Positions 1,420 through 17,506 of a stretch of DNA of 20,286 bases are shown here, piece by piece. The translations under genes and the position numbers were made by a program. Each line of letters starts with the position of its first letter. Position 1 is the stretch's first letter. The stretch is from the IMG/VR virus record IMGVR_UViG_3300044712_000467, positions 1 to 20,286 of that record; one strand, 5' to 3'. The notes under the pieces are model-generated. The model ran no database searches. It had not been told where the DNA came from and was given only the letters and a program-made list of their open reading frames with translations. Origin of the DNA: a virus.

Positions 1420-1920
1420 ATGAAAGAATACATGAATAATCCTAAATATAAATATATGCTTAAATTTCCAAATTGCAGTAGTTGTGGAGAGCAACTAACA
1501 ACTAACAAGTCTAAGTATGGTTTATGTCATAAATGTATAGGTAAAAGTAAAGAACACACAGAAATACTTAGCAAGTCTCACGCCAATCAAAAGAACCCCA
1601 ATAAGGGTAAAGCATTACCGCTCCTAAGAGGAGAGAACGCCAACCACTGGACTACTGGTTATTCAGTAAATGTGGCAAATGACAGACTAAGAGATATGGC
1701 GAGAATAGAATATAAGTTATGGAGAAAATCTGTATTTGAAAGAGATAATCATACTTGTGTTATTTGTAATTCAACTGAAAATATAGAGACTCACCACATA
1801 AAATCATGGCATAATTTCCCAGAACTTCGTTACGCAATAGACAATGGGGTTACTCTATGCCGACCTTGCCACCTAAAAACAGACAATCATGGTAAAAAAG
1901 TTAAATGGGAGGTCAAATGA
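1420..1920 (+). CDS. HNH endonuclease, free-standing homing type
   Basis: A 166-aa protein with two zinc-binding parts. Near the N-terminus is NCSSCGE ... LCHKC, a CxxC/CxxC finger. The C-terminal half reads YKLWRKSVFERDNHTCVICN, then HHIKSW, then a late Asn (DNGVTLC) and CRPCH, which is the classical HNH nuclease with structural cysteines. The GENANHWTTG stretch before it resembles the linker common in phage HNH homing enzymes. The chosen start has GAGG at 1409-1412 with a 7-nt spacer; an upstream in-frame TTG (1384) lies inside the previous gene and was not chosen. Such enzymes cut phage DNA and spread their own gene. It sits 2 nt after the co-chaperonin stop and overlaps the next gene by ATGA. 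Confidence 0.85.
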   Translation: MKEYMNNPKYKYMLKFPNCSSCGEQLTTNKSKYGLCHKCIGKSKEHTEILSKSHANQKNPNKGKALPLLRGENANHWTTGYSVNVANDRLRDMARIEYKLWRKSVFERDNHTCVICNSTENIETHHIKSWHNFPELRYAIDNGVTLCRPCHLKTDNHGKKVKWEVK

Positions 1921-3317: not shown

Positions 3318-3991
3318 GCGTATCAGCCTGCACCCTACTACACTACACAGACAGAGACGAACCTAACGCCCCTAAGATTGTAAACGCTCTTAAAGGACAG
3401 GTAGATAAGATCCTAGTATTTATTGATAACCCTGAGATTAAGTTTGATGACCCTGATTGTATTATCCTGAGATCTAACAAACCCTTCCCTGTGATTGCCA
3501 GGAACATGATAGGTGCTTTACTAGATACTGATTATGTTTTCTTTCAAGACTCAGACTTATGCACAGAGCCAGATACCATCAAGTACATGCTAGGTTATGC
3601 ACAAAGTTATCCACAATCAGTCTTAGGATTTGAAGGGTCAAGGATGGCAGATACCCCCCACCCGTATACGCAAGGCACTACGATTGATCGTGGGGACAAA
3701 TTAGAGCCAGTTGATATGTTGATTCGTACATGGCTAGTACCTAGGCGTGTAGTTGGTTTGGCGGTAAATCTCTACCTGAATAATCGTGGGATAATACCCG
3801 ACAAGTATGTGGATGATATTCTATTTTGTTTAGGAAACCGCTACGCATTCAAAGAGCAAAACTACGCTTTACCTATCGTTAAAGGTTGTGGAGTCATTGA
3901 AATAGGCGAAAAAGAGGAAGGACAGTGTGCAACTCCTACTCATTACGCAGTCAGAGATCAAGTATGTAGATATTTAATGGAGTCCAGATGA
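3314..3991 (+). CDS. GT-A type glycosyltransferase
   Basis: A 225-aa protein overlapping the previous gene by ATGA. The fold clues are an N-terminal beta-strand region (VDKILVFIDNPE), the NMIGALLDTDYVFFQDSDL block with a DSD metal motif at residues 79-81, and VDDILFCLGNRYAF in the C-terminal part, where GT2-like enzymes place an acidic catalytic residue. No membrane segment or signal peptide is seen. It is shorter than typical GT2 enzymes (about 250-330 residues) but appears whole. Its place in the sugar operon supports a glycosyltransferase role; donor and acceptor cannot be inferred. Confidence 0.68.
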   Translation: MSVSACTLLHYTDRDEPNAPKIVNALKGQVDKILVFIDNPEIKFDDPDCIILRSNKPFPVIARNMIGALLDTDYVFFQDSDLCTEPDTIKYMLGYAQSYPQSVLGFEGSRMADTPHPYTQGTTIDRGDKLEPVDMLIRTWLVPRRVVGLAVNLYLNNRGIIPDKYVDDILFCLGNRYAFKEQNYALPIVKGCGVIEIGEKEEGQCATPTHYAVRDQVCRYLMESR

Positions 3992-5118
3992 TAAAACTAA
4001 TCAAAAACACCTTCTATCATGAGACTTGGACAAAGATTAGGCTAGCTTGGTTTATTCTCTGGGCTAAACAGCTATCATTTGGCAAGAAGTGTGAGCAGTT
4101 TGAAAAAGAGTTTAGTAAATGGCAGGGTAGAGATGACTCAATCTTTGTAAACTCAGGGTCAAGTGCTAATTTAGCAGTTGTACAAGCACTTCTTAACATG
4201 GGTTATCTAGCTAAAGGAGACAGAGTAGGATTCTCAGCTCTTGGATGGTCTACAACGGTCATGCCACTGATACAACTAGGGCTTAAGCCAGTACCAATTG
4301 ACGTAATGAGTGGATCTTTAAATATAAACAGTGTCCCAAAGAATATAAATTGCTTATTTATGACAAATCTTCTGGGGATTTGTCCTACAAACATGGATGA
4401 TATTGTAAAACACTGTAAAAATAACCATATTATTTTAATAGAAGATAATTGCGAGAGTCTTGGATCTGAATATCAAGGTAAAAAACTAGGAAACTTTGGT
4501 ATGGCTTCTACTTTTTCATTTTATGTAGGTCACCATATGTCCACAATAGAGGGCGGAATGATTTGTACTGACAATAAAAGGCTGGCTCGTGAGCTTAGGA
4601 TAGTTAGAGCACATGGTTGGGACAGAAATTTAGATATTCGCACACAAAACACCATTAGAAAACAGTATAAAGTAGAAAATTCCTTCTATTCACGCTATAC
4701 CTTCTATTCTCTAGGGTACAATCTTAGGCCAACAGAGATTGCGGGCTTTCTAGGGCTATTACAGCTCCCCTACCTCAAGGAAATAGTTGATAAAAGAGTG
4801 GCAATCTATCAGTATTTGCTCATGCATATCAATAAAGGAACCATAAATCCTACTTGGATGACCAAACATTCAGCATTTGCTTTCCCCATAATTTGTAAGA
4901 CCTCAAAAGAGCGTGACGAGCTAGTTAAACGATGTAGTGGTAAAATAGAAGTACGACCAATAGTCGGCGGTGACCTAACTTCACAACCTTTTTATAACTT
5001 TAAAACAACTGGGGTTACAACCGCACGCAAAATACACGAGACTGGACTATACATAGGGATCAATCCCGATATGACGCAATCTGATTTAGATACTATTGTG
5101 AGGACAATCAATGATTAG
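3988..5118 (+). CDS. DegT/DnrJ/EryC1-family PLP enzyme with His for Lys (ColD-like sugar 3-dehydratase)
   Basis: A 376-aa protein with the family order: LSFGKKCEQFEKEF, the phosphate-binding FVNSGSSANLAVVQALL (53-69), LGWSTTVMPLIQLGLKPV, LIEDNCESLGSEYQGKKLGNFG, and FSFYVGHHMSTIEGGMICT. In ordinary aminotransferases of this family the last block holds the PLP-binding lysine (as in FSFHAIKNLTT). Here that position is His182 (codon 4531-4533), followed by His183. The same Lys-to-His change marks ColD and the RfbH/E1 group, which remove a 3-hydroxyl to make 3,6-dideoxysugars. The inferred product is therefore a sugar 3-dehydratase, not an aminotransferase. It overlaps the preceding gene by ATGA and the next by 8 nt. 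No 4,6-dehydratase is present, so the substrate would have to come from the host or elsewhere in the phage. Confidence 0.82.
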   Translation: MIKLIKNTFYHETWTKIRLAWFILWAKQLSFGKKCEQFEKEFSKWQGRDDSIFVNSGSSANLAVVQALLNMGYLAKGDRVGFSALGWSTTVMPLIQLGLKPVPIDVMSGSLNINSVPKNINCLFMTNLLGICPTNMDDIVKHCKNNHIILIEDNCESLGSEYQGKKLGNFGMASTFSFYVGHHMSTIEGGMICTDNKRLARELRIVRAHGWDRNLDIRTQNTIRKQYKVENSFYSRYTFYSLGYNLRPTEIAGFLGLLQLPYLKEIVDKRVAIYQYLLMHINKGTINPTWMTKHSAFAFPIICKTSKERDELVKRCSGKIEVRPIVGGDLTSQPFYNFKTTGVTTARKIHETGLYIGINPDMTQSDLDTIVRTIND

Positions 5119-5725
5119 CCTTGACATAGACGATGGATCAATCTTGCGTAATAGGTATGATCTCCTATTACAGCTCAAGGAACACTACCCAGAGTTAAAA
5201 GTCTCACTGTTCTACATCCCCTACGACTACGAGGCAGAAATGACACAATTATCCCTTCAGCGTAAAGCCAAACTAAAACTCCTTAAAGATAACCTAGACT
5301 GGATAGAGCTAATCCCACATGGAGTTATGCACATCCCTAGTGAGTTTGAGAAAGCAGATAGGAAAGCTGCTGAGTTATCATTACAGGCGATTGATGAGGC
5401 TTTCAGGCATGATGACCTACCCTACGTCAAAGGATTTAAAGCTCCATTCTGGTTGTGGAACCAGGAAGTGGTGGACGTGCTAGATGAGAACGGATGGTGG
5501 GGGGCAGTAGATAAGAACAATCCAAAGATGTTAAAGACTAAGAAGGTCTATACCTATACTCATTCAATCTATGAACCAATCCCACAAGAAAGTGATATTG
5601 CTTTACACGGTCACATGTCACCCCCAAGTCAAAATGATATAGGAGCTTGCTTTGTTAATCTTATGAAAATTCCACATGGACAGAAGTGGTGTTTTGCTAG
5701 TGAGAGGGTATGCGAAAAAAAGTAA
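5111..5725 (+). CDS. NodB-like polysaccharide deacetylase
   Basis: A 204-aa protein. Family CE4 marks are ISLDIDDGS at the N-terminus (motif 1, usually TFDDG; D7 and D8 are candidate catalytic and metal residues), IPHGVMH (H70 and H74, motif 2 histidine pair), GFKAPFW (about 108-114, the motif-3 region, with K where RxPY enzymes have R), and ALHGHMSPP near the C-terminus. These enzymes remove acetyl groups from N-acetylated sugars using a metal ion. No signal peptide is visible, so it probably acts in the cytoplasm on a sugar precursor. It starts inside the end of the previous gene, suggesting translational coupling. The motif-3 change makes the exact activity uncertain. Confidence 0.72.
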   Translation: MISLDIDDGSILRNRYDLLLQLKEHYPELKVSLFYIPYDYEAEMTQLSLQRKAKLKLLKDNLDWIELIPHGVMHIPSEFEKADRKAAELSLQAIDEAFRHDDLPYVKGFKAPFWLWNQEVVDVLDENGWWGAVDKNNPKMLKTKKVYTYTHSIYEPIPQESDIALHGHMSPPSQNDIGACFVNLMKIPHGQKWCFASERVCEKK

Positions 5726-5940
5726 TAAAAGAAGTTGTCAAAGAACCAGAGTGGACACCTATCAACTTCGTACTTAAAACGTGTCAGAGATTCCCTACCC
5801 ATGCTTGCTTTGAGCCTGTTACAGACTGGAAAGAGATGGTAGAGGTCAAAGGTAACCAAGAGATCACCACTAAGCGGGCAACCTGTCGCAAAGGTCACGA
5901 GAACGAGATTATTACTATTAAAAACCTAGACTTCATATGA
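5710..5940 (+). CDS. Small protein of unknown function in the sugar operon
   Basis: A 76-aa protein not recognised. It is basic at the start (MRKKVIKEVVKEPEW), then has Cys and His pairs: C-x6-HAC in the middle and CRKGH about 30 residues later, which could bind a metal, though the spacing matches no zinc finger I know. It overlaps the deacetylase gene by 16 nt and the next glycosyltransferase by ATGA, so it is probably co-translated with both. The tight packing, rather than similarity, supports it as a real gene. Confidence 0.6.
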   Translation: MRKKVIKEVVKEPEWTPINFVLKTCQRFPTHACFEPVTDWKEMVEVKGNQEITTKRATCRKGHENEIITIKNLDFI

Positions 5941-6926
5941 AAAAGCTAGTCATGTACACCAACTCTAGCGCCTCAGCTCAGTGGAGACTACAAGATCCTG
6001 CTAAATACATGGACTATGAGATCAGATTCCCACAAAACGGTATCAAAGAGGAAGACATACAGTGGGCAGATTGTGTAACCTTACAAGGATGTGTGGATAA
6101 ACAGGCCATCGCCATGATTGCCTATTACAAAGATCAAGGAAAAAAGTTAGTCCTCGAGCAAGATGACAGAATAGTGGTAGAGGATGATAATCCCCACAAG
6201 AAACAGCATGACATAGTAGGGGCAAGTAGGATTATCGAGATCACAGCAGGTATGGCGGACATGATTACCTGTACCACACCTTACCTGGCTAATAATCTCA
6301 AGCAATACAACGATAAAGTAGTCGTACTACCCAACTACATGGATATGAAAAGGTGGGATCTCCCAGATAAACATCCAAATACTAACCCCAATCAAATAAG
6401 GATAGGATACTTCGGGTCAATCACACACCTAGAAGATATTAAGATGATCCTACCTGCGCTACATAAACTCTACGCAGAGTATCCAAACCTAATGTTAGTG
6501 TTTGTGGGGGATCCTAGAGTCGCTGATCTAATGGAGGGACTACCAAGTGAGGTGATGATGGGTGTACCCTTTGACGGTTATCCTGCTAAGTTACACTCGC
6601 TTTCACTAGATATAGCCATTGCACCACTGAGAGATACTGAATTTTGCCTAAATAAATCAGCTATAAAGTTTTTCGAAGCTAGTATTGCTCACTACCCAAT
6701 GGTTGCATCAAACACAATCTATAAGTGGGAAATTGAACACAATAAGACTGGCTTACTCTCACCTACACTAGATGACTGGTATATCAATCTAAAGAGACTA
6801 ATTGATAGTAAGGATTTGAGAGACGCCCTAGTAACTAACGCCTACAAGTACGTCAAAGAAACAAAAGATCTTGAGAAAAGGATCTATAAATTCAACGACG
6901 CATATAACTCGCTATGGACGTGTTAG
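5937..6926 (+). CDS. GT-B (GT4-like) glycosyltransferase
   Basis: A 329-aa protein. The N-terminal half ends in VVVLPNYMD, the usual linker before the second Rossmann domain. The C-terminal half has RIGYFGSITHLED (155-167), LMLVFVGDP, LDIAIAPLRD (224-233) and SAIKFFEASIAHYPMVAS (241-258), the last matching the GT4 donor-binding E-x-x-A region. It probably transfers a nucleotide-activated sugar as the last enzyme of the operon. It overlaps the 76-aa gene by ATGA. The stop at 6924-6926 is followed at once by the next promoter (6928 on), with no terminator between. Confidence 0.83.
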   Translation: MKKLVMYTNSSASAQWRLQDPAKYMDYEIRFPQNGIKEEDIQWADCVTLQGCVDKQAIAMIAYYKDQGKKLVLEQDDRIVVEDDNPHKKQHDIVGASRIIEITAGMADMITCTTPYLANNLKQYNDKVVVLPNYMDMKRWDLPDKHPNTNPNQIRIGYFGSITHLEDIKMILPALHKLYAEYPNLMLVFVGDPRVADLMEGLPSEVMMGVPFDGYPAKLHSLSLDIAIAPLRDTEFCLNKSAIKFFEASIAHYPMVASNTIYKWEIEHNKTGLLSPTLDDWYINLKRLIDSKDLRDALVTNAYKYVKETKDLEKRIYKFNDAYNSLWTC

Positions 6927-6932
6927 TAAAAG

Positions 6933-6941
6933 TGGTATACT
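6933..6941 (+). promoter_or_regulatory. Extended -10 promoter, leader module A
   Basis: TGGTATACT, within AAAAGTGGTATACT (6928-6941). The same 14 bases occur exactly at 16399-16412. It begins 2 nt after the glycosyltransferase stop. No good -35 is seen. The expected transcription start, about 7 nt downstream, falls on the AGCTA at 6948. Confidence 0.68.
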
Positions 6942-6947
6942 AAACCA

Positions 6948-6997
6948 AGCTACACTAATATAAATTAGCAGGCACTCAGGAATGAGTGTCTTTTTTG
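6948..6997 (+). promoter_or_regulatory. Double-hairpin transcript leader, copy A
   Basis: AGCTA start (6948-6952). Hairpin 1 is CTAAT/ATTAG (6955-6959 / 6964-6968) with a 4-nt loop, then CA. Hairpin 2 is GGCACTCA/TGAGTGTC (6971-6978 / 6983-6990) around the GNRA tetraloop GGAA, followed by T6 (6991-6996). The ribosome site AAGGAGG begins only 5 nt after the U-tract. It looks like a terminator placed after the promoter and before its gene, so it may attenuate or regulate gene 7014. Confidence 0.72.
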
Positions 6998-7013
6998 CTA
7001 TAAGGAGGACTTT

Positions 7014-7469
7014 ATGACAAACGTATACGCAGGTGGATTACCCATTAACAACGCAGCCAATACTCAAGGAGATACGTTTACTGGAGCTGTTACTTTTACA
7101 GTAGCCCCAACTGGTCCCCAACTCCGAACTGTAACCGACAGTGCCGCAGTAGGTGCAACAGTTGTACTAACCGCAGCTCAATCAGGGCAAGTATTTAACA
7201 ATGCCTCTACCTCAGGCTCACCATCGTGGACACTTCCAACCGCAGCTAATGGTCTTTATTACACGTTCACTTGTGGTAATACTACTGCAGGATTTACGGT
7301 AACTGGTGGAACTATCAAAGCTAAAGCTAACGCTACTGGCGCAGCAATAACTGGTACAACTTTGACTCATACTCAAGCTACTGCAGTAATTGGTGACTGT
7401 ATCACTCTAGTTTGTGATGGAACATTATGGCGCAACATTGCCCAAAATGGTATCTTTACAGCCGCTTAA
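7014..7469 (+). CDS. Phage structural protein, probable head decoration or fibre
   Basis: A 151-aa protein rich in Thr, Ala and Gly, with no catalytic motif. The N-terminal GDTFTGAVTFTVAPTG is typical of phage fibre and decoration proteins. The remainder, with WTLPTAANGLYYTFTCG, GFTVTGGTI and ITLVCDGTLWRNI, resembles a compact all-beta domain found at the ends of phage appendages. It has a strong AAGGAGG site 6 nt before ATG and is the first gene behind leader module A, upstream of the adaptor and nozzle genes. I recognise the style, not a named family; decoration and small fibre are both possible. Confidence 0.62.
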   Translation: MTNVYAGGLPINNAANTQGDTFTGAVTFTVAPTGPQLRTVTDSAAVGATVVLTAAQSGQVFNNASTSGSPSWTLPTAANGLYYTFTCGNTTAGFTVTGGTIKAKANATGAAITGTTLTHTQATAVIGDCITLVCDGTLWRNIAQNGIFTAA

Positions 7470-7484
7470 TAAAAGGAGGCTCTA

Positions 7485-8171
7485 ATGGCAACTCAATATA
7501 AAGGATTAGTCTCAGACATATTACAGATCATCTCTGATTATCGTGGTGAAACGACGGTCAACTCTGACGCTATGCGTATTCGGGCAATCTCACGTCAAGA
7601 ACAGGATATTGCTAATCGTAGATTCTGGTCAATGTATCTTCTACCTAATCAGACAATGGCTGGATCTGGAACTAACGATCAAACAATAGGTTCTGCAACC
7701 TATCCAATGCGTACAAAAGGGCTAACTGAGGTCTTTGTAAATGGAACTGATGAGTCTCACCGCTACCAGATAGTTGACTACAATAAATACAAAAATCTAG
7801 TAAACAGAAACAGTGCAGAGCAAGTAGTTTATACATGGTACGACGCAGCTAATGATCTTATGAAAATGCACATTAATCCTATTCCAGCAGTAACAGATAC
7901 AATAACTTATTCATACTACTGGACACCACCAGAAAGAACCGCAAGCACTGATGCAGTCTCATTTGTAGAACCAGAAGCACTAGCTCGACTAGCTCTATCT
8001 GAGATCTATGAGTCTGAGGAAGAAGATGATAAAGCTATCGCCCAAAAGTCTCTGGCTGAACAAATATTGGAAGAAGCCACAAGTGTAGAAAACGCACCTA
8101 GCGTCAATCAAACTTATTCCTTTGGTGCGATAGAGAACTCTATTAAAAACCAAGGAATAGGCATGTATTGA
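7485..8171 (+). CDS. Head-tail adaptor (connector) protein
   Basis: A 228-aa protein. The opening GLVSDILQIISDYRG and the EQDIANRRFW block, followed by VFVNGTDESHRYQIVDYNKY, beta segments and a helical C-terminal part (EALARLALSEIYESEEEDDKAIAQKSLAEQILEEA), match the layout of podovirus adaptor or tail-tubular-A type proteins: helix bundle, beta region, then C-terminal helices and a flexible tail. These proteins form a ring below the portal and join the head to the nozzle. Start chosen at ATG with AAGGAGG upstream. Directly followed by the nozzle gene with a 1-nt gap. No close family can be named by eye. Confidence 0.68.
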   Translation: MATQYKGLVSDILQIISDYRGETTVNSDAMRIRAISRQEQDIANRRFWSMYLLPNQTMAGSGTNDQTIGSATYPMRTKGLTEVFVNGTDESHRYQIVDYNKYKNLVNRNSAEQVVYTWYDAANDLMKMHINPIPAVTDTITYSYYWTPPERTASTDAVSFVEPEALARLALSEIYESEEEDDKAIAQKSLAEQILEEATSVENAPSVNQTYSFGAIENSIKNQGIGMY

Positions 8172-8172
8172 T

Positions 8173-10095
8173 ATGCGCAAATTTAACCTACCAAGAACCA
8201 AGCAAAAATTCTTTGAGTCTAGGCAAGAGGGCTGGATTAAAGGTGTTAATAAACTTGTTTCAAATACTCAAATTAAAGACACTGAAATAGCCGACTCAAT
8301 AGACATTCAACTAGTAGAAGACGGTAAAATCCAATGTCCACGTGACGGTCAAGCGTACTACGGTACAAGTAGTGGATCAAGGGTCACAGGACTCTATCCA
8401 TACTACAAATCAGATGGTACTAAAACTCTCCTAAGAACCGCAGGGACTAATCTACAGAAGTATGTGGGGACTACCCCAACCAACGTCACGGGTGGCACAG
8501 GATACACCACAGGGCTTAACACAAACGGTATTGTGGCTTATGACAAGTTATATCTATGTAATGGGACGGATAACCTAACCTATTATGATGGTACACAAGT
8601 TCAATCATTCACCCAGCGTACCGCACCAACAATCTCAAGTGTTACAAGAACTGGTGGGGGAGCTGGAACATTCACTTATTCATATAAAGTAACCACGGTT
8701 ACAGCTAATGGCGAGACTACTCCAAGTGCTGCCATGTCTCAGACCCAGAACGTAGCCGAGCTTACCGCCTCAATCTATCTAACAGTTACATGGAGCGCAG
8801 TAACTGGAGCCATCGGGTATAACATCTACGGCAACAAAGACGGTCACTGGTACTTCATGGCGTATGTAGAGGGAAATGGAACGGTAACCTATGTAGATAA
8901 TGGATCTGATATTCCCAACGAGTTCTTCACCACACCAGAGGGTAACTCAACAGGTGGTCAAAAGGGTAAGTACATTGCTTTATACAAAGACTCACTATTT
9001 ATCCTAGGTGATACTGCTAATCCCTCAAGGCTTTACTACTCAGGTGGTGGCGACAAGCTTGAGGACTTCACCGTAGGTGGAGGTGGTGGGTTTATTGACG
9101 TATCAAAGAATGATGGTCAAGCTGGTACTGGAATGATTGTGTTTAAAGATTCATTACTTGTATTTAAAGAGCGCTCAATCTATCAGTTTACCTTTACCTC
9201 AGCGGGTCTACCAAGTGTTACTCAGGTCAACCCAGGTGTGGGGTGTGTCGCCCCTAGATCAATCGTAGCTGTAGAGAATGATGTGTTCTTTGCCTCAGAG
9301 TTTGGAGTTTACACGGTAGGTAACGAGGCTGGGTTCTCCTTTGATGTACTAAGAACTAACGAGCTCTCAGCTAAGGTTAGATCAATTTATCAAACAATTG
9401 ACCCTGCATATATTCAAAATATGTCAGCAGTATACGGAAAAGTTGCCAATAAAAACTTGGTTATATTCTCCTATACGCCATCAGGCTCAACAACGAACGA
9501 AAAAGCCCTAGTGTATGACCGTGAACGTCTAGCGTGGTATCCGTGGTCTAACATCAAAGCTAATTGCTTTACTGTCTTTAAAGGAACGGACGGAGTTAAT
9601 CATGTACTATATGGATGTGATAGCTCGGGTTATGTTAAAGAAGCATTGACTGGATATGATGATTTTGGCAGCGCAATAGCGGCAGACTTCACGCTCAAAT
9701 CAGTCTCATTTGGAGAGACTAACACATATAAAAAACTCAAAAGAATTGATCTACTTCTAAGACAACCCCAAGGTTCAATCACCCTAGATATTATTAAAGA
9801 CGGAGTCACAACTGCTAAAACTATTGCTTTGAGTACTATTCAGCCTTCAATAAACTTTAGTCATTATGTATTTACTCGCTTCCTATTTGGTGTATCTGTA
9901 GGTACTGGTGTATCTACTCAAGACGAAAATCTACTTAGATCAATCAAGCAGTTATCAGATGTAGGTGATGGAAGATCATTTGCTCTTAAATTCTCAAATA
10001 ATACGACTGGTAAATTTACTCTACTTCTTTCATATCTAAAAGCTAAACCAAGGTCAGCTAACTTTAGACATAGTGAAGACTGGGTAGCTAGTTAG
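8173..10095 (+). CDS. Tail nozzle / tubular protein B-like
   Basis: A 640-aa protein of repeated beta strands such as GIVAYDKLYLCNGTDNL, KYIALYKDSLFILGDTANPSRLYYS, GMIVFKDSLLVFKERSIYQF and IVAVENDVFFASEFGVYTV. These look like beta-propeller blades and match podovirus nozzle proteins, in which 'F.dRlyl.g....p....S..gd..dF' repeats are typical. An inserted fibronectin-like region (about 152-240: APTISSVTRTGG, TYSYKVTTVTANGETTPS, WSAVTGAIGYNIYG) interrupts the propeller. The protein would close the bottom of the tail and gate DNA exit. The start follows the adaptor stop by 1 nt and lacks a strong ribosome site close by, so coupling is likely. Confidence 0.78.
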   Translation: MRKFNLPRTKQKFFESRQEGWIKGVNKLVSNTQIKDTEIADSIDIQLVEDGKIQCPRDGQAYYGTSSGSRVTGLYPYYKSDGTKTLLRTAGTNLQKYVGTTPTNVTGGTGYTTGLNTNGIVAYDKLYLCNGTDNLTYYDGTQVQSFTQRTAPTISSVTRTGGGAGTFTYSYKVTTVTANGETTPSAAMSQTQNVAELTASIYLTVTWSAVTGAIGYNIYGNKDGHWYFMAYVEGNGTVTYVDNGSDIPNEFFTTPEGNSTGGQKGKYIALYKDSLFILGDTANPSRLYYSGGGDKLEDFTVGGGGGFIDVSKNDGQAGTGMIVFKDSLLVFKERSIYQFTFTSAGLPSVTQVNPGVGCVAPRSIVAVENDVFFASEFGVYTVGNEAGFSFDVLRTNELSAKVRSIYQTIDPAYIQNMSAVYGKVANKNLVIFSYTPSGSTTNEKALVYDRERLAWYPWSNIKANCFTVFKGTDGVNHVLYGCDSSGYVKEALTGYDDFGSAIAADFTLKSVSFGETNTYKKLKRIDLLLRQPQGSITLDIIKDGVTTAKTIALSTIQPSINFSHYVFTRFLFGVSVGTGVSTQDENLLRSIKQLSDVGDGRSFALKFSNNTTGKFTLLLSYLKAKPRSANFRHSEDWVAS

Positions 10096-10102
10096 TCTCA
10101 TT

Positions 10103-10122
10103 CTCTTATACTAAGCAGGTAT
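10103..10122 (+). repeat. Imperfect direct repeat, copy 1 of 2
   Basis: CTCTTATACTAAGCAGGTAT here resembles CTCTTATTCCCAAGCAGTAT at 10282-10301, with CTCTTAT, AAGCAG and TAT shared. The copies lie at the two ends of the first domain of the candidate RNA. The inverted pair CTTATAC/GTATAAG uses the left part of copy 1 and the right end of copy 2. Confidence 0.5.
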
Positions 10123-10281
10123 GACGAACGAGGGAGTCTTAAGGAACTAAATCCCTTTGTTTCTTTGAGAGTTTATAGGGATGACCCCATCTCTTGCACT
10201 AAATCGACTATCCCGAAAACTAGACGTATCTAGAAAGGGGAGGTTCGCCCGATAGGTGACGATAACCCTCGCACACTTTTA

Positions 10282-10301
10282 CTCTTATTCCCAAGCAGTA
10301 T
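10282..10301 (+). repeat. Imperfect direct repeat, copy 2 of 2
   Basis: Second copy of the repeat described at 10103-10122. It is followed by AAGACTTC and continues into the GTATAAG arm of the closing helix. Confidence 0.5.
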
Positions 10302-10393
10302 AAGACTTCACTCAGGCGTAGTTATGCTGACCGGTTCACCTTTTCCGTTGGTACCCACAGCATGCTACTACTAGCTCAGGGTGGGGTTGAACC

Positions 10394-10430
10394 AAAAAAA
10401 ACACCCCTTTCGGTGTGTTTGCTCGTTTTT
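10394..10430. terminator. Bidirectional intrinsic terminator
   Basis: Stem AAACAC (10399-10404) / GTGTTT (10415-10420) plus CC/GG (10406-10407 / 10412-10413) across one mismatch. On the minus strand the loop is a GAAA tetraloop and the stem runs into eight U (10401-10394), a very good terminator. On the plus strand the tail is weaker (GCTCG then T5 at 10426-10430). It fits transcripts arriving from both sides. Confidence 0.72.
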
Positions 10431-10508
10431 AACGTAGTCCAACTATTAAAGTTTATCAAATTTAGAAAAGAAGTCAAGTCCCCCCGCTAGTTGTTGTTGG
10501 ACTACGTT
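10431..10508. repeat. Perfect 13-bp inverted repeat
   Basis: AACGTAGTCCAAC (10431-10443) and its exact reverse complement GTTGGACTACGTT (10496-10508), separated by 52 nt. The right arm is flanked by CCCCCCG (10480-10486) and CGGGGGG (10510-10516), a second perfect 7-bp inverted pair that interlocks with the first. Confidence 0.85.
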
Positions 10509-10527
10509 ACGGGGGGAATATTCATAT

Positions 10528-10536
10528 ATTATACCA
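10528..10536 (-). promoter_or_regulatory. Minus-strand extended -10 promoter
   Basis: Reverse complement reads TGGTATAAT, identical to the cargo-island promoter at 822-830. No matching -35 is seen at 17 nt. It diverges from the + strand promoter at 10556-10583 and points at the candidate small RNA. Confidence 0.6.
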
Positions 10537-10555
10537 GACCGTACAATAGGGGTAT

Positions 10556-10583
10556 TTGACATCCCCCTTAACTAGCGTAAAAT
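10556..10583 (+). promoter_or_regulatory. Sigma70-type promoter, leader module B
   Basis: TTGACA (10556-10561), 16-nt spacer, TAAAAT (10578-10583). The predicted start at about 10591 coincides with the AGCTA of the leader. AACTAGCG (10570-10577), just before the -10, is the exact inverse of CGCTAGTT at 10485-10492. The -35 lies between AGGGG (10548-10552) and CCCCT (10564-10568), a possible operator dyad. Confidence 0.75.
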
Positions 10584-10590
10584 TAGAATT

Positions 10591-10640
10591 AGCTACACAA
10601 GTAAATCACTTGCAGGCACCTAGAGATAGGTGTCTTTTTG
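10591..10640 (+). promoter_or_regulatory. Double-hairpin transcript leader, copy B
   Basis: AGCTA start (10591-10595). Hairpin 1 is CAAGT/ACTTG (10598-10602 / 10608-10612), then CA. Hairpin 2 is GGCACCTA/TAGGTGTC (10615-10622 / 10627-10634) with tetraloop GAGA and T5 (10635-10639). Unlike copies A and C, no ribosome site with a start codon follows at once; the next + strand gene begins 185 nt downstream, and that gap is filled by the minus-strand 47-aa frame. Confidence 0.72.
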
Positions 10641-10784
10641 TTATTTAGAGGAATAGAAACAACCTACGGTACCAGGACCAAGATCCTCTACCCAAGGGAA
10701 GTAACAAAAATGAGCATTTAATAGGTACATTGCCCAAAGCATGTACACACACGCCAGTAGAAAGGCAATTAAAAGTTTATTCAT
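10641..10784 (-). CDS. Putative 47-aa single-pass membrane microprotein
   Basis: Minus-strand frame from ATG at 10784-10782 to TAA at 10643-10641. It begins MNK followed by a hydrophobic run of about 19 residues (LLIAFLLACVYMLWAMYLL), then a short Cys- and aromatic-containing tail (HFCYFPWVEDLGPG...) ending SSK. One transmembrane helix, or an uncleaved signal anchor, is expected. A TATAAT on the same strand (10796-10791) places the transcript start at or next to the ATG, suggesting a leaderless message; the ribosome site is weak (AGG close to the ATG). The stop codon abuts the U-tract of leader B. Similar tiny membrane proteins in phages act in exclusion or lysis, but nothing here identifies a role. 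A chance ORF cannot be excluded. Confidence 0.45.
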   Translation of the reverse strand: MNKLLIAFLLACVYMLWAMYLLNAHFCYFPWVEDLGPGTVGCFYSSK

Positions 10785-10785
10785 A

Positions 10786-10808
10786 GACCTATTATAACAT
10801 TATAGGTC
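10786..10808. repeat. 23-bp dyad between the microprotein and ejection genes
   Basis: GACCTAT (10786-10792) and ATAGGTC (10802-10808) are perfect 7-bp arms around a 9-nt AT-rich centre. It covers the minus-strand -10 of the 47-aa frame and ends 4 nt before the AGGAG site of gene 10825. It could be an operator or a hairpin near the ribosome site. Confidence 0.55.
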
Positions 10809-10824
10809 AATAGGAGAGAATAAT

Positions 10825-11913
10825 ATGGTACAAATAGGAAGCTGGGGAACACCCGAATTTGGAATTACGGAGAAACTTCAAAGTATTTTTGCCCCAAATA
10901 AAGGATTATCTTCTCAGGGTGGATCCAATCTATTTGGACCATCTCAACCATCTGCTTCTACCCCAACCGCTCCGACATCTACCAGTCCATATGGTCCTAC
11001 ATATTATGGTCCTCAGCCTGCTCCGAAACCATCTGGAACACTCAGCTCTGGTGGTAAAACCCTCGGAGCCTCCACCTATCAAGACCCCTACGCTGGTGCT
11101 AATAATGCTGCACAGTCTGAAGCTGATGCTTATCTCCAATCCCTAAACACCGAATACGACAGAGCCGCAGAAGACCTAAGAGGACAGCTAACCTCAGCAG
11201 GTAACGCTAGAACTCAGGGACTATCTTCACTTCAAAGTGCAGTTGATGAATACGGTAATACAATCAATACTCAGAAACAAACAGCACAGAACGCAACTGC
11301 TAAAAACATCCAAAGCGCTGGATCTATGGCTGCTCAAACTCAGGGTAAGAGCCGTAATATCCTAAGAGCTTTAGGTATCCTCTCAAGTAGTGCAGCAGGA
11401 GATATTCTAAGTAGACCAATGTCTGAGTTTGGAACACAGAAAGCCGATCTCCAGCAAGGACTTATCCAGAGAACTCAGGAACTAGACAACGCCCTAGCTC
11501 AAAAGACAAGCGAACACGCCAATCTAGTTAAACAACTAGAATCACAATATGCTGACATTGTGGGCAAGATCCAGACTGATCTAAGATTTAGTGATCGTGA
11601 GAGAGCTGACGCTGTAGCAACTGCTAAGGCAGCTGTCTTATCTAGACTTTCAGAGATTAGAACAGCTCAGGCTAACTGGCAGAATCAAATCAATGCTGCA
11701 AAGAGTGGACTAGCGTCATCAACTGCTGGATTCTCCAGCTACGCACAACCAACAGCTGACCTTAGTAAAATATCTGGGACTGGACTCAATCCTCAAGAGC
11801 AATACAAACAAGGTCAACAGACTAGCGTCTATGATCCAAAAAAGAGGTTACAGGCAGATACAGTCTCACCTCTCTACAAGGACACCCTAAGTAGCGGAAT
11901 ATATAACGCATAA
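10825..11913 (+). CDS. Probable internal virion / ejection protein, coiled coil
   Basis: A 362-aa protein. Residues about 28-90 are low complexity, rich in Pro, Ser, Thr, Gly and Tyr (for example TAPTSTSPYGPTYYGPQPAP). Residues about 95-300 are long Ala/Gln/Glu-rich helices (SEADAYLQSLNTEYDRAAEDL, ADLQQGLIQRTQELDNALAQ) that should form coiled coils. A flexible tail follows. There is no signal peptide or enzyme motif. Size, helix content and position between the nozzle and a very large protein match podovirus ejection proteins, which leave the head with the DNA and build the trans-envelope channel. The start has AGGAG with 8-nt spacing. Family not recognised; role inferred mainly from context. 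Confidence 0.6.
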   Translation: MVQIGSWGTPEFGITEKLQSIFAPNKGLSSQGGSNLFGPSQPSASTPTAPTSTSPYGPTYYGPQPAPKPSGTLSSGGKTLGASTYQDPYAGANNAAQSEADAYLQSLNTEYDRAAEDLRGQLTSAGNARTQGLSSLQSAVDEYGNTINTQKQTAQNATAKNIQSAGSMAAQTQGKSRNILRALGILSSSAAGDILSRPMSEFGTQKADLQQGLIQRTQELDNALAQKTSEHANLVKQLESQYADIVGKIQTDLRFSDRERADAVATAKAAVLSRLSEIRTAQANWQNQINAAKSGLASSTAGFSSYAQPTADLSKISGTGLNPQEQYKQGQQTSVYDPKKRLQADTVSPLYKDTLSSGIYNA

Positions 11914-11923
11914 AGGAGGCGTC

Positions 11924-14900
11924 ATGTCTCTTTTTGACTTCTACAAACAAAAACTAGCACCAATAGGACAGAAGCTGTCTGGAATGATTGACCAAGATCA
12001 GTCTATGTCTGGTATTCAACTAGCTAAGGGTGGACTCCTCAATCAACTAAACCAAAGAGGGATAATCGGAGTAGGTGGTCAGTCTCTTGCCCCTGTTCAA
12101 GTACGCCCAGCACAACAGTTTGTTTCAGGTGCGTTAAGACCAGTAGCTGATGCGGTAGGTACATTTGGAAAGTTATCCTTTGATGCTATTGTTAAACAGC
12201 CAGCTAGAAACCGTCAGATGCAACTAGACACACAGAAAGCCATAGACGCTAGTAATCGTGCATTACAGACCGCTAAGATGACTAGGGAGGCTGGTAGACC
12301 CGATCTAGCAGCACAGATGACTCGCTCAATGATCCCCCAACTACAATCAGAGAGTCAGAGATTCCAAGATATTACAAATCAAACACAATCCAAGCAGAAA
12401 GCACTGGTAGGATCGGGTGTTAGAACTGGTTTATATGCCTCAGCTCTTGCTGCACCAGTAGCCTCACTTGGTGCTGGAGCTTTAAGTACTGGACTTGGAG
12501 CTGCATTTGCAGGTCAAACCTCACCAGAACAACTAGGAACATCATTTGGAGAAGGATTTAAGTACGGTGGTATGCCTAATCCTGTAGTTAAAGGTGGATT
12601 ACTGGCTAAATCAGCAGTAGGTGGACTTGTAAACCTTGCAGAAGACGCCTTATACGCCAAAACAGTTGAGAATCGGAATCTATCTCCCAAAGAAATAGCT
12701 CTATCTTTGGCTTTACCTGCCGCCTTTGAAACAATGGGGGCATTAAATAAAGCGATAAAAGTCAAACCTAAAGTTGATGTAACTACAACCCCAGAGGGAC
12801 TAACCTACAATAAAAAAGGTCAATTATTTGATCCTATTAGTGGACAGTTTGCTAAAAGTACCGAGGAAGCTAGGATTGCTGTACAACACGTTAAAGATTT
12901 TATTCAGTCAGGTGGTAAACCAGTTAGATCTCAGACAAGACTAATTGAAACAGCTCCAAATAAATGGGTAGATGAACAAGATTTGCAGAACTTTAACTCC
13001 ACTATAGACACCCCCAAACTAGCAGTAGAGCCAACCACCCCTATCAGAAGACCACTTAAAGAGGTGTATGGGGAGAAGTTTAGCGGACCAACCACACAAG
13101 AAGCCCCAAGATTAACCAAGGAAGTGCAAACACCAAGTACACAAATAGAAGCTCCGAAGCCAGTTGTTTCATCTGACTCTATTATAACCCCTGCTGGCAA
13201 CCTACCCAAACGCTCTGGACAATTAAAACAGCAACTTATGGAGGCACAGCAAGGACTAGAACAGTCTCAAGTTATAGCAGAGCAAAACAAACTAATTAGA
13301 GACAACTTTTCAAACGATCAAATAAAAGACATAAACAAATTGAAGCTGGTTGCTAAGAAATCACTAGATCAAGGTGGGGATATTGAAACTCTAAGAGCCA
13401 AGTATCCTAAACTGGTTGAAAGCGTAACATCTAGTGTAAGAGAGGCAGATCAAACTATTATTGGTGACTCAGAAGCCATAGATTTTGCACTATCTCTACC
13501 CACTAAGGCAGAAACTAAAGTAAACATGACAGAGGTAAAACAGCTACAGAAACAACTAGATCCAATTACTAAACTAGATGAGGCTGGTATCGCCGCAACA
13601 ACTGGCGATAAGTCTATTACATCAGCTATCGCAGAGCCTACAATCAAAACAGTTAAGAAAATATCTACTAAGCAACAGAAACTAGATACAGCCAATGAAG
13701 TAAGAGCTAGAAAAAAACTAGATGATGAGTGGCAGAAGGCAGTCTTTGGCGAAGCTCAGACTAGAACTGTTAAGCAGGCAGAGAAAGAACTAGACCAAGC
13801 TATAAAAAGAAGCACTAATGAAGCATCTTTCAAAATGGACACAGCTGATGGATGGAAAGATAAATCAGCTTTATCACTTGGAACTGAGACAATGGATCGT
13901 AACTTTGAAGATGTTATGGGTAAAAACGCACCAGAGTTAAAACGTAAACTATTAGAACCAGTGTATAAAAAAGAAGCAGAGCGCACTAGATTCCTAAATA
14001 CGGAACGTGAGCAGATTAAACAATTAGGAATTAAGGCTGGCAGTAAGGAGTCTTCGCTTGTGCAGGAATACGGAGAGGGGAATATAACCAGAGAGCAATT
14101 ATCACAACAAACAAACAATCCAGAAAAGATAATAAAAGCCAGTGAGTTTATTCGTGGTAAATATGATGAGTATCTAGGACAGTTAAACAAAGTCCTAACT
14201 AGAAATGGATACGAGCCAATCCCCAAACGACAAGACTACTTCCACCACTTCCAAGAGTTATCTGGAGCATTTGATTTACTTGGTGTATCGCTAAAAGCAC
14301 AGGATTTACCAACAGATATAAACGGACTTACGGCAGACTTCAAGCCAGGTAAAACATTCTTCTCTGCTGCATTACAGCGACTTGGTGGCGATTATAAGAG
14401 TGATGCTATAGGTGGTATTGATAAATATCTTGAAGGAGCTAGTAACCAGATTTATCATACAGACAATATCCAAGCTCTAAGGTCTTTTGAAACAGCTCTT
14501 AGAGAAAAATATGCAGGAACTAATCACTTGAGTAATTTTGTGGCTAACCTATCTGAATATACGAATGGGATAGCTGGCAAGAAATCAATGATTGACCGAG
14601 CGGCTGAAAGTATTGTGGGTCGTGGTATTTACGGGGCTGCTACTGGTCTTAAGAGACAGGTAGGGGCGAACATGGTCGGAGCTAACGTATCATCGGCTCT
14701 TACTAACTTTATTCCTCTAACGCAAACACTAGCTACTACAGACAAAGGATCCGTTCTTAACGCAATCATGGCTACAATTAAGAATGTAGGTAAAGATGAC
14801 GGGTTTATTCAAGCATCTGATTTTCTTACTACTAGGAATGGGACAGACAGACTAGCCAAATCACTATACGAGAACGTGGCTGATAAGGCGGGTTGGTTAT

Positions 14901-16399
14901 TTAAGAATGTAGATAGTTTTGTGTCTCAAGTAGTAACTAGATCTAAATATCTTGAGGGGATTAAGAAAGGAATGAGTGAATCCAGTGCTATGGATTATGC
15001 AAACTCATGGGCTAAAAAGCTAATGGCAGGTCGTGGTAAGGGTGAAATGCCAACCCTATTTAACTCTCAAACACTTGGAGCTATAACGCAATTCCAACTT
15101 GAAGTAAAAAATCAACTATCTTTTATGGCTAAGGATATTCCTAGAAACTTCGATAAGGTTGGCGCAACTTCCGCCATAGCTCAACTATTCTTATATGGAT
15201 ACTTATTTAACAATATCTATGAGAAGGTTACTGGTCGTAGACCAGCATTTGATCCTATCGGGGTAGGACAGAGAACTTATGAAGACTACACTAACCCAGA
15301 TATGAAAAAGGGTCAGGCTACCAAAAATCTAGTAGGCAACGTATCAGACCAATTACCATTTGTTTCTACATTCACGGGAGGCAGATTACCAATTACCTCT
15401 GCTATTCCCAATCCTATGGCAGTAGTAAACGGAGAATCAACTCTCAAGAAAGAACTTATGAAACCACTACAATTTGTCCTACCCACTGGTGGCGGACAGA
15501 TCAAAAAGTCTTACGAGGGGATTAAGGCATACAATCAGGGAGCATCGACCTCGCCCAGCGGTAGAGTAAGATACACTATTCCACAAACACCAGCAAATAG
15601 AGTAAGAACTGCTTTGTTTGGTCAATGGTCAACACCAGAAGCACAAAAATACCTTCGTGAAGGTCAAACTCCTCTTGGATATAACCAATCAAAGATTGTA
15701 CTGGAGAGTAATGACAAACAAACATTATTTGACAAGATTAAGTCTAGACAATTATCCGACAAACAACTAGCGGCAGTCAAAGACACTCTAAAATCTGGCA
15801 ATACTAAGTCTGCAGCAGTAACTACTGGTAAGTATGTCTACTTTGATGAAAAAACTGGCGATGTAAATACTCTCGACCTATCCAAAGTAACATCTATGCC
15901 AGAGACTACAAACTATGAAACTGTCAAAAAAGACAAGGCAAGGTGGACACTAGCCGATGACATCCTCAAACTAGACCCCACAGACCAGGTAGAAGCGTTC
16001 AAACAATTAGGTATCTCCAAGGATGACGCTGAATACTACACAGTCGCAAAAGACGCCACAGAGGCTAAGGCTGCATACATCAAAGACCAAGTTCAAGGTG
16101 TTAAAAACTATGACGAGTTCTTGCAGAAAGTAGCTCCACTAACCAAAGAAGTAAATGGTCAAAAGATCCTATCATCTGGAGTAGTTGACTGGATGTACAA
16201 CAACGACATAATCACCTCTGCTCAAAAGAAACAACTCAAGAGTTTAGAGTTTAAAGGTGGCAAAGTAGGAACCAAGGCTAGTACAGCTAAGGGTAAGATC
16301 AAAAAAATAACAGTAAAACCACTATCTAAGTTCAACCTAGCAGGGAAAGTTAAGAAAGTTAAGCGTATTCGTACAAACCAATATAAACTCAAAATATGA
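11924..16399 (+). CDS. Giant internal virion / ejection-type protein
   Basis: A 1491-aa protein, the largest gene here, 10 nt after the coiled-coil gene with a strong AAAGGAGG site. Visible regions: a Gly/Ala-rich hydrophobic stretch at about 161-198 (ASALAAPVASLGAGALSTG) that could enter a membrane; a Gln/Lys-rich helical middle (about 430-650); a helical region with RTRFLNTEREQIKQLGIKAG and a RQDYFHHFQEL motif (about 765-775); and around 1005-1070 a block (SKYLEGIKKGMSESSAMDYA ... ITQFQLEVKNQLSFMAKD) resembling large polyvalent/internal virion proteins of phages. The C-terminal 35 residues are very basic (KGKIKKITVKPL...), as in DNA-contacting tails. No transglycosylase or polymerase motif was found. 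It probably rides in the head and is ejected with DNA. Confidence 0.68.
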   Translation: MSLFDFYKQKLAPIGQKLSGMIDQDQSMSGIQLAKGGLLNQLNQRGIIGVGGQSLAPVQVRPAQQFVSGALRPVADAVGTFGKLSFDAIVKQPARNRQMQLDTQKAIDASNRALQTAKMTREAGRPDLAAQMTRSMIPQLQSESQRFQDITNQTQSKQKALVGSGVRTGLYASALAAPVASLGAGALSTGLGAAFAGQTSPEQLGTSFGEGFKYGGMPNPVVKGGLLAKSAVGGLVNLAEDALYAKTVENRNLSPKEIALSLALPAAFETMGALNKAIKVKPKVDVTTTPEGLTYNKKGQLFDPISGQFAKSTEEARIAVQHVKDFIQSGGKPVRSQTRLIETAPNKWVDEQDLQNFNSTIDTPKLAVEPTTPIRRPLKEVYGEKFSGPTTQEAPRLTKEVQTPSTQIEAPKPVVSSDSIITPAGNLPKRSGQLKQQLMEAQQGLEQSQVIAEQNKLIRDNFSNDQIKDINKLKLVAKKSLDQGGDIETLRAKYPKLVESVTSSVREADQTIIGDSEAIDFALSLPTKAETKVNMTEVKQLQKQLDPITKLDEAGIAATTGDKSITSAIAEPTIKTVKKISTKQQKLDTANEVRARKKLDDEWQKAVFGEAQTRTVKQAEKELDQAIKRSTNEASFKMDTADGWKDKSALSLGTETMDRNFEDVMGKNAPELKRKLLEPVYKKEAERTRFLNTEREQIKQLGIKAGSKESSLVQEYGEGNITREQLSQQTNNPEKIIKASEFIRGKYDEYLGQLNKVLTRNGYEPIPKRQDYFHHFQELSGAFDLLGVSLKAQDLPTDINGLTADFKPGKTFFSAALQRLGGDYKSDAIGGIDKYLEGASNQIYHTDNIQALRSFETALREKYAGTNHLSNFVANLSEYTNGIAGKKSMIDRAAESIVGRGIYGAATGLKRQVGANMVGANVSSALTNFIPLTQTLATTDKGSVLNAIMATIKNVGKDDGFIQASDFLTTRNGTDRLAKSLYENVADKAGWLFKNVDSFVSQVVTRSKYLEGIKKGMSESSAMDYANSWAKKLMAGRGKGEMPTLFNSQTLGAITQFQLEVKNQLSFMAKDIPRNFDKVGATSAIAQLFLYGYLFNNIYEKVTGRRPAFDPIGVGQRTYEDYTNPDMKKGQATKNLVGNVSDQLPFVSTFTGGRLPITSAIPNPMAVVNGESTLKKELMKPLQFVLPTGGGQIKKSYEGIKAYNQGASTSPSGRVRYTIPQTPANRVRTALFGQWSTPEAQKYLREGQTPLGYNQSKIVLESNDKQTLFDKIKSRQLSDKQLAAVKDTLKSGNTKSAAVTTGKYVYFDEKTGDVNTLDLSKVTSMPETTNYETVKKDKARWTLADDILKLDPTDQVEAFKQLGISKDDAEYYTVAKDATEAKAAYIKDQVQGVKNYDEFLQKVAPLTKEVNGQKILSSGVVDWMYNNDIITSAQKKQLKSLEFKGGKVGTKASTAKGKIKKITVKPLSKFNLAGKVKKVKRIRTNQYKLKI

Positions 16400-16403
16400 A
16401 AAG

Positions 16404-16412
16404 TGGTATACT
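16404..16412 (+). promoter_or_regulatory. Extended -10 promoter, leader module C
   Basis: TGGTATACT, inside AAAAGTGGTATACT (16399-16412), which is identical to 6928-6941. It begins on the last base of the preceding stop codon. The expected start falls close to AGCTA at 16420. Confidence 0.68.
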
Positions 16413-16419
16413 TATTATT

Positions 16420-16470
16420 AGCTATTCTAGTAACAACCTAGCAGGCAGATCGAGAGGTCTGTCTATTTTG
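16420..16470 (+). promoter_or_regulatory. Double-hairpin transcript leader, copy C
   Basis: AGCTA (16420-16424). Hairpin 1 is CTAG/CTAG (16427-16430 / 16438-16441), then CA. Hairpin 2 is GGCAGATC/GGTCTGTC (16444-16451 / 16456-16463) with tetraloop GAGA, then TATTTT. The AAGGAGG site of gene 16487 follows within a few bases. Confidence 0.72.
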
Positions 16471-16486: not shown

Positions 16487-17506
16487 TTGGCAGTAACATT
16501 TCACCAACGCAGTGCAGGCAACAACGCTAGTACCACGCTATCATCTGGCGTAACTAATAGCGATACAAGTTTTCCACTCACATCGGATACCCTTTTTCTT
16601 GCAGGTGGTGGATTTGTCATCATTGATGAGGGTCTAGCAACTGAGGAACTCGCCTATTACACAGGTAAGTCAGGTGGTGCTTTGACTATCCCCCTTGCTA
16701 ATCGTGGACTAGAGGGTGGATCAGCCCAAGGTCATGCCACTGGAGCATCTGTTAAAGGTGTTCTATCGGCCGATATGTGGAATAACGTCATAGAAACTCT
16801 GGCTAATGGCTTTAGTGCAACTGATGGGACACTTGATTTAACTAAGGTAGTCTCACCTGACGGAACTCAAACACTAACTAACAAATCAATCACAAGTCCT
16901 ACAATCACAGGTACAGGCTCAGCCGTTCTATCTAAAACATCAGGAGCCATCACCACCGACACCGACGGAGCCACAATCACGATGGACTGTACAACCTCAC
17001 GTCACCAGGTAGTCTTGGGAGGCAACAGAACACTAGAGTTATCCAATCTCTCAACAGGTCAGGTAACGATAGTAGATCTAATCCAAGACTCTACAGGCTC
17101 ACGTACGGTCACTTGGCCGTCATTTGGGGCTACGGCTACCATGACTATCGCTACACCTTGTGTAGTAACTACAAATAAAGACATTCCTACTCTCACTCCT
17201 GTAATATTCACTACAACTGGTGCATTGCCTACTGGTGTGACTGCTAGTACGGTCTATTACTACGTCAGAGTAAACGCCACAACAGGCAATATCAGTACCT
17301 CAGTGGCTAACGCTCAAGCAGGAACGTATATCGCTACATCAGGCTCACAATCAGGTACACATACTTGTGCAGTACAAGTCAGATGGCCTAGCCAGACTGC
17401 ACCTACTTTGAGTACAGGGAAGTTCTTAACAGACACAATTAACTTTTATTGTAAAAATGCGACAAATACAGTGGTAAATGCAACTACAGCAATAGCGGGG
17501 GTGTGA
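16487..17506 (+). CDS. Tail fibre / appendage protein
   Basis: A 339-aa protein starting at TTG, chosen because AAGGAGG lies 5 nt upstream. The N-terminal third (TTLSSGVTNSDTSFPLTS ... FVIIDEGLATEELAYYTG ... NRGLEGGSAQGHATGASV) is a small beta domain common at the attachment end of phage fibres. It is followed by GTQTLTNKSITSPTITGTG, a repeat-like segment seen in many tail fibres. The rest is Thr- and Gly-rich beta structure. It is the first gene behind leader C and sits before the glycine-rich adhesin, so it likely anchors or forms part of the host-binding apparatus. Confidence 0.75.
   Translation: MAVTFHQRSAGNNASTTLSSGVTNSDTSFPLTSDTLFLAGGGFVIIDEGLATEELAYYTGKSGGALTIPLANRGLEGGSAQGHATGASVKGVLSADMWNNVIETLANGFSATDGTLDLTKVVSPDGTQTLTNKSITSPTITGTGSAVLSKTSGAITTDTDGATITMDCTTSRHQVVLGGNRTLELSNLSTGQVTIVDLIQDSTGSRTVTWPSFGATATMTIATPCVVTTNKDIPTLTPVIFTTTGALPTGVTASTVYYYVRVNATTGNISTSVANAQAGTYIATSGSQSGTHTCAVQVRWPSQTAPTLSTGKFLTDTINFYCKNATNTVVNATTAIAGV

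Follow-up and report, generated by a model that had tools for sequence, protein, structure and literature searches.

To time late transcription, phages usually rely on a new sigma factor or polymerase, or on a single antitermination site. In lambda, a host-type promoter with an early terminator behind it precedes the late virion genes, and Q is encoded just upstream, before the late terminator. The RNA targets of ANTAR proteins consist of two hairpins with six-base loops, and the put RNAs of phage HK022 are, to our knowledge, not part of a terminator. Lambda Q is described as binding DNA at a site within the late promoter and as engaging a sigma-dependent pause (PMC6606751). The put RNAs are about 70 nt long and act on early operons over long distances (PMC9378689). 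In antiterminator leaders, a protein-stabilized hairpin leaves the terminator with a shorter stem that no longer abuts the U-tract, the two structures being mutually exclusive (PMC3369936); in S. mutans bglP, transcription starts 7 bp from the -10 element and the RAT begins 4 bp later (PMC1489936). In conAn of pLS20-type plasmids, a protein together with an RNA brings about antitermination of large operons (PMC8955417).

Here, we compare with these systems a promoter-leader module that occurs in several copies in one stretch of viral DNA. The module is the local representative of a leader RNA family that has not been described before.

Results

Module copies in the window

The window, that is, the whole stretch analyzed, is a virus record of 20,286 bases and probably represents a fragment. 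Family matches of its proteins identify a tailed-phage virion region, with the end of the major head protein, a GroES-domain protein, an HNH protein, glycosyltransferases, a DegT-type aminotransferase, an SU10-type adaptor, a tail/stabilization protein, and large and fiber-like proteins. The glycosyltransferase and DegT-type genes lie within the virion region (1905-6926), as glycosyltransferases do in ctQWt234. At 775-845, an ordinary terminator-like hairpin stands 3' of the head protein gene, and next comes an extended -10 promoter that has no module and lies ahead of the GroES-type gene. Megablast against phages gave no match.

A preliminary description of the window had reported three copies (A to C) of a promoter followed by an AGCUA transcript start, a first hairpin (HP1), CA, a second hairpin (HP2) with a GNRA loop on a constant GGCA/UGUC base, and a U-tract. 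All three were found at the positions given there, and the pairing claimed for HP1 and HP2 is borne out, including the loss of the innermost HP1 pair in copy C. The shared pattern AGCTA-N10..20-GCAGGCA-NNNN-GNRA-NNNN-TGTC occurs three times in the window and not once in 100 dinucleotide shuffles. The count of copies was one short, however, as a fourth, module D, lies on the minus strand (Table 1). Module D was outside the training set of covariance model R1 (see below) and has one bulge in HP1 and one mismatch in HP2. Copies A and C share an extended -10 element, TGGTATACT, with a weak -35 element, and both have a Shine-Dalgarno sequence between module and start codon. The -10 element and AGCTA are separated by 6, 7, and 7 nt in the three plus-strand copies, which places AGCUA at about +1.

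Module D heads no gene: no ORF was found 3' of it on the minus strand, and it is directed into an ORF-free region (10096-10440). The plus strand of this region folds better than shuffles (z of -2.6), the region is missing in the near relative G001 (gene end at 1017, module at 1048), and a search for relatives of it found none; it is possibly an orphan structured RNA or an insertion. An inverted repeat, TAACGTAGTCCAAC / GTTGGACTACGTTA, lies on either side of the module D promoter (10431-10444 and 10498-10511). Antisense to the leader B transcript, a minus-strand ORF of 47 aa with a hydrophobic start (10641-10784) encodes a conserved tiny peptide that shares about 50% identity with a 60-aa ORF in the equivalent place in G001 (1098-1280).

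Table 1. Module copies, their promoters and adjoining genes in the window
Feature	Position	Strand	Basis or remark
Copy A promoter, extended -10 TGGTATACT	6933-6941	+	Sequence; same element at copy C
Leader module A: AGCUACA, HP1 6955-6968, CA, HP2 6971-6990, U6	6948-6996	+	64 bits with R1
P0 of copy A: GCU 6949-6951 with GGC 6971-6973, HP1 enclosed; excludes HP2 base	6949-6973	+	MFE of first ~27 nt is P0+HP1
Gene 3' of copy A, 151 aa	7014-7469	+	Without family match
SU10-type adaptor, after the 151-aa gene	7485-8171	+	Protein family match
Tail/stabilization-type protein, after the adaptor	8173-10095	+	Protein family match
Module D, P0 GUU/AAC	10394-10444	-	R1, 34.9 bits
Module D promoter, TTGACT-16-TAAACT, TG ahead of -10	10450-10477	-	Sequence
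Copy B promoter, TTGACA-16-TAAAAT	10556-10583	+	Score 11/12
Leader module B: HP1 10598-10612, HP2 10615-10634, U5	10591-10640	+	Sequence and R1
P0 of copy B: GCU with GGC	10592-10594, 10615-10617	+	Pairing
Gene 3' of copy B, 362 aa	10825-11913	+	Orthologs module-led in 8 other contigs
Copy C promoter, extended -10 TGGTATACT	16404-16412	+	Sequence
Leader module C: HP1 16427-16441, HP2 16444-16463, tail UAUUUU	16420-16469	+	Sequence and R1
P0 of copy C: GCU with GGC	16421-16423, 16444-16446	+	Pairing
Gene 3' of copy C, 339 aa, fiber-like	16487-17506	+	Orthologs module-led in 7 other contigs

The module in related phages

Related loci were collected through the MCP (44 loci) and through a portal alignment (50 loci), with contigs that overlap in part, and stretches of about 20 contigs were examined for copies. 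By eye and in a first search, copies of the same plan appeared in phages of 38 to 58% G+C. Covariance model R1, built from ten copies, brought the number found to about 45, and with model R2, built from 43 copies, the collection grew to about 80 rows from 47 loci in related phages, some of the rows being near-identical. These relatives show both the conserved pairing and the AGCUA start on which the preliminary description had staked its claim. Their common plan is a sigma70-type promoter, a start 5 to 7 nt past the -10 element, AGYYNNW, an HP1 closed by C-G, CA, HP2, a U-tract, and a virion gene. Because the portal set was fetched without use of the RNA, it provides an independent test, and modules stand directly upstream of most of its portals.

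Both hairpins covary. In alignment A2, which is small and was made without structure, 93.8% of cells pair, sliding gives at most 46%, and both sides change in 11 of 13 pairs; in the larger alignment, which was fitted to the structure, the values are 94.5% and at most 45%, with both sides changing at all 13 HP1 and HP2 pairs. A C-G pair closes HP1 in 42 of 43 copies; the HP1 loop is 3 to 8 nt long and often A-rich, and the 8-base tail contains at least six T in 73 of 81 copies. Several details proved to be local. The GGCA/UGUC base is constant in copies A to C, but HP2 usually starts with GGC, not invariably GGCA, and relatives have a variable base, mostly GGC/GYC; the GNRA loop of the local copies recurs in some relatives only and is replaced by other loops elsewhere, so it is not family-wide; and the constant G-U pair at the HP2 base is not a family feature.

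A third helix predicted to compete with the terminator-like hairpin

The preliminary description overlooked a third helix, P0, in which nucleotides 2 to 4 pair with the three bases that open HP2, enclosing HP1 with a 3x2 internal loop (4x3, 2x2, or 3x3 in some copies, with pairing kept). P0 is only 3 bp long. In one fixed register, full triples pair in 39 of 48 copies compared with 11 in the best slid register; with the better of two registers the count is 41 of 48, whereas shuffled partners gave 20 on average and 30 at most in 5,000 shuffles. P0 is paired in 95% of cells of an alignment not fitted to it, and outside the model training set it is present in 19 of 23 copies (shuffle maximum, 15). 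Pair types include GCU/AGC, GUC/GAC, GAU/AUC, GGU/GCC, UCU/AGA, CCU/AGG, and ACC/GGU, and the full helix is missing in 4 of 48 copies. A divergent module before the portal of L021 (G013) has an extended 5' end and a long loop in HP2, and keeps P0 as CCU/AGG. The sequence and loop of HP1 vary across copies; therefore, any binder would have to read the shape and the internal loop.

Because the three 3' bases of P0 also open HP2, P0+HP1 and the terminator base are mutually exclusive. The minimum free energy (MFE) structure of the first ~27 nt is P0+HP1 in 13 of the 14 copies listed, and that of the whole module is the terminator state (median energies of -4.0 and -12.0 kcal/mol for P0+HP1 and the terminator, respectively). 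From these sequence features, the module would be an antiterminator/terminator switch at +1 to +50. The proposal that the repeated promoter-leader with covarying hairpins probably serves attenuation or antitermination thus draws support from the covariation in relatives and the predicted competition with P0, and P0 turns attenuation by competing structures into a more specific and likelier reading than was apparent when it was proposed.

Promoters and genes behind the module

A promoter scoring at least 9 of 12 stands in the right place at 35 of 81 copies, against 2% at random positions. The gap between the -10 element and the module peaks at 5 to 7 nt across the 81 copies, so the module begins at about +1. 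Many relatives have their start codon 0 to 6 nt behind the U-tract, without a Shine-Dalgarno sequence, and at some sites there are separate terminators upstream (e.g., G003 26234).

Every copy that heads a gene precedes virion genes. These fall mainly into six orthologous groups across different genomes: the portal, the GroES-type protein after the head protein, a 168-aa protein, the SU10-type adaptor, a 350-aa protein, and the fiber-like protein. The near-complete G001 has four modules, all in the virion half, and none at ~9.4 to 28.8 kb, its early-gene region. No modules occur anywhere in two long relatives, G008 and G011; a leader terminator was looked for at the same positions in their genes and not found. 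Upstream of the portal in L122, L140, L133, L136, L118, L026, and L127, the late promoters are module-less and nearly leaderless (TTGAC ... ATG). In L140/G011, a genome without modules, TTGACACGAAA is repeated at the promoters of several virion genes.

A small protein linked to the module

By blastp, early genes are not common to these phages, and no conserved early regulator was found except a small protein adjoining the portal module, an orphan of 60 to 90 aa encoded between the terminase and that module. Where this spot is covered, about 30 contigs have both protein and module, 2 have the protein only, 4 have neither, and none has the module only (Fisher p of ~2e-4, on hand-made counts). 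The protein occurs without a visible module in L026 and L127, both fragments; neither is present in G008, G011, L133, and L136. On a portal tree whose bootstrap is not settled, these four scattered lineages need 3 to 4 separate changes. L133 and L136 cover the portal region only, and the whole-genome test consists of G008 and G011; in the two short contigs, joint loss could be one local replacement, because the protein adjoins the portal module.

The small protein is not basic. Its fold model consists of two helices and a hairpin (pLDDT of 89), and a fold search with this model gave no convincing match (GnsA, Z of 3.6 and rmsd of 5.2 over 53 residues); tblastn against phages gave no match. Assignment to DUF2292 (PF10055) was rejected, with member 1 scoring 15.5 bits, below the gathering threshold of 22 bits; an E value of 0.1 or less was reached by 3 of the 30 members, the best of them at 0.0036. 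The small protein is associated with the module and is a candidate for a factor that binds it.

Specificity and novelty

The best R2 score in 195 bacterial genomes was 32.6 bits, and most family copies score 33 to 60 bits; because the controls reach this value, copies under ~33 bits rest also on position and promoter. All six bacterial matches were dismissed as ordinary terminators behind tRNA genes or CDS. The best R2 score in other phages was 14.6 bits, and no module was found in other MCP relatives (ctQWt234, Pony, ctf1B273, and gut phages). In 80 other viral contigs, R2 scored at most 26.1 bits; among the matches listed for a broad pattern in viral contigs, a search of limited reach outside the clade, the best score was 26 bits. 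The exact pattern with GNRA and UGUC was too narrow and so gave only chance matches to coding sequence in viral contigs. Bacterial genome contigs contained MCP relatives at only 34 to 35%, in Bacilli MAGs and without the module.

The statement that no described family matches agrees with our searches: in Rfam 15 no family reached its gathering threshold, one tRNA being the only match, and no describing paper was found. The best subthreshold candidate, lysM-TM7 (16.6 bits against 61.5), was not repeated in a second search and was set aside as chance. A literature search for a repeated promoter-terminator late module, with subscription journals mostly outside its reach, also found nothing. We conclude that the leader forms a new RNA family, one whose kind of mechanism is already known, and that its use before virion blocks is new.

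Discussion

We estimate at roughly two in three the probability that the modules are late-gene attenuators of virion blocks, relieved by a factor that binds P0-HP1 and is perhaps the small protein. Judging from promoter spacing, a host-type RNA polymerase would start at the first A of AGCUA, and the first ~27 nt would fold into a small imperfect hairpin, P0+HP1 with its 3x2 internal loop, as covariation and MFE suggest. With onward transcription, the last three bases of P0 would be needed for the base of HP2, which together with the U-tract has the sequence and structure of an intrinsic terminator and would be expected to terminate. Because HP2 needs the P0 bases and the energies favor it, free RNA should switch to the terminator and stop near +50. 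A factor holding P0-HP1 would shorten the terminator stem and part it from the U-tract, allowing polymerase to enter the virion genes; this geometry agrees with that of antiterminator leaders already described (PMC3369936, PMC1489936). The best candidate for this factor may be the 60- to 90-aa protein, as its gene lies immediately ahead of the portal module and of the first putative late terminator, much as Q does in lambda, and one switch copied before each virion block could give single on/off control of a late regulon. The stricter proposal, that this protein is an antiterminator of a new family that binds the 27-nt 5' hairpin and switches on the late regulon from sigma70 promoters, is tentative, and we would sooner expect it to need revision than to stand.

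The element might instead work without a protein, as HK022 put does, with nascent P0-HP1 acting on the polymerase and carrying it past HP2 and perhaps later terminators. Its place at the very 5' end resembles that of putL (PMC9378689), its structure is conserved while its sequence varies, and conserved regulators are scarce among phages that share no early genes. We nevertheless consider RNA-only antitermination unlikely, since put is ~70 nt with two long stems and the 5' element here ~27 nt, the 3' strand of this element belongs to the terminator, suggesting local competition, and a linked protein exists. Somewhat less probable again is an attenuator in which P0-HP1 senses a ligand or host protein changed by infection and the small protein has another role. 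Between its variable helices the element has a conserved internal loop (NNW / CA), as binding sites typically do, and the linked protein lacks a known RNA-binding fold, but the restriction of gene-heading copies to virion genes suits phage timing more than a metabolite, and module and protein are lost jointly.

Two explanations would do without a switch. If HP1 and HP2 shielded the mRNA or set a cut near the start codon, with HP2 non-terminating, the close, Shine-Dalgarno-free start codons of many relatives and the near absence of a leader behind module-less late promoters would make sense; we regard this as very unlikely because it leaves unexplained both the near-invariant U-tract and the pairing of nucleotides 2 to 4 with the terminator base, which is incompatible with full HP2. 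That the modules are ordinary terminators of upstream operons, overlapping the next promoter by chance and with HP1 and P0 incidental, is scarcely credible: from its position HP2 could also stop transcription arriving from upstream, but HP1 and P0 covary, in contradiction to this explanation, the distance to the promoter is fixed, and some sites, such as that in G003, have their own terminators further upstream.

What we propose under the attenuator reading is a small RNA switch copied before each virion block, with three strongly covarying helices of which two are mutually exclusive. It would add an RNA family and show how late genes are controlled in a group of uncultured phages; RNA and protein together might form a minimal antitermination pair that could serve as a compact genetic switch.

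Among described systems, lambda Q likewise combines an early terminator behind a host-type promoter with a regulator gene just upstream; the module system differs in having many promoters, each with an RNA switch, and no Q match was found among the window proteins. conAn is a processive system with a single site heading one operon, and it is not known to us to involve a competing helix. put, like the module, is a phage RNA at the 5' end just past the promoter and has two stem-loops in its layout, but where put is a ~70-nt RNA of two long stems and no terminator, the module has a ~27-nt element, and its second stem is a terminator-like hairpin with a U-tract. By analogy, the leader would behave like a RAT- or ANTAR-type attenuator, a likeness in mechanism and not an assignment to either family. 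It shares with ANTAR-responsive leaders a hairpin that competes with the terminator and, in its proposed mechanism, protein-stabilized antitermination (PMC3369936), and differs from them in having one hairpin, with loops of 3 to 8 nt, plus P0. With BglG/SacY/LicT RAT leaders, it shares a small imperfect internal-loop hairpin a few nucleotides from the start, and, as in RAT leaders, the putative antiterminator hairpin (P0, GGC) overlaps the 5' arm of the terminator. Sequence and loop geometry are different, and no BglG-family CAT-domain regulator was found among the window's own proteins. The RAT regulator is built of CAT and PRD domains and RATs lie in sugar operons, whereas the module is repeated before many virion operons.
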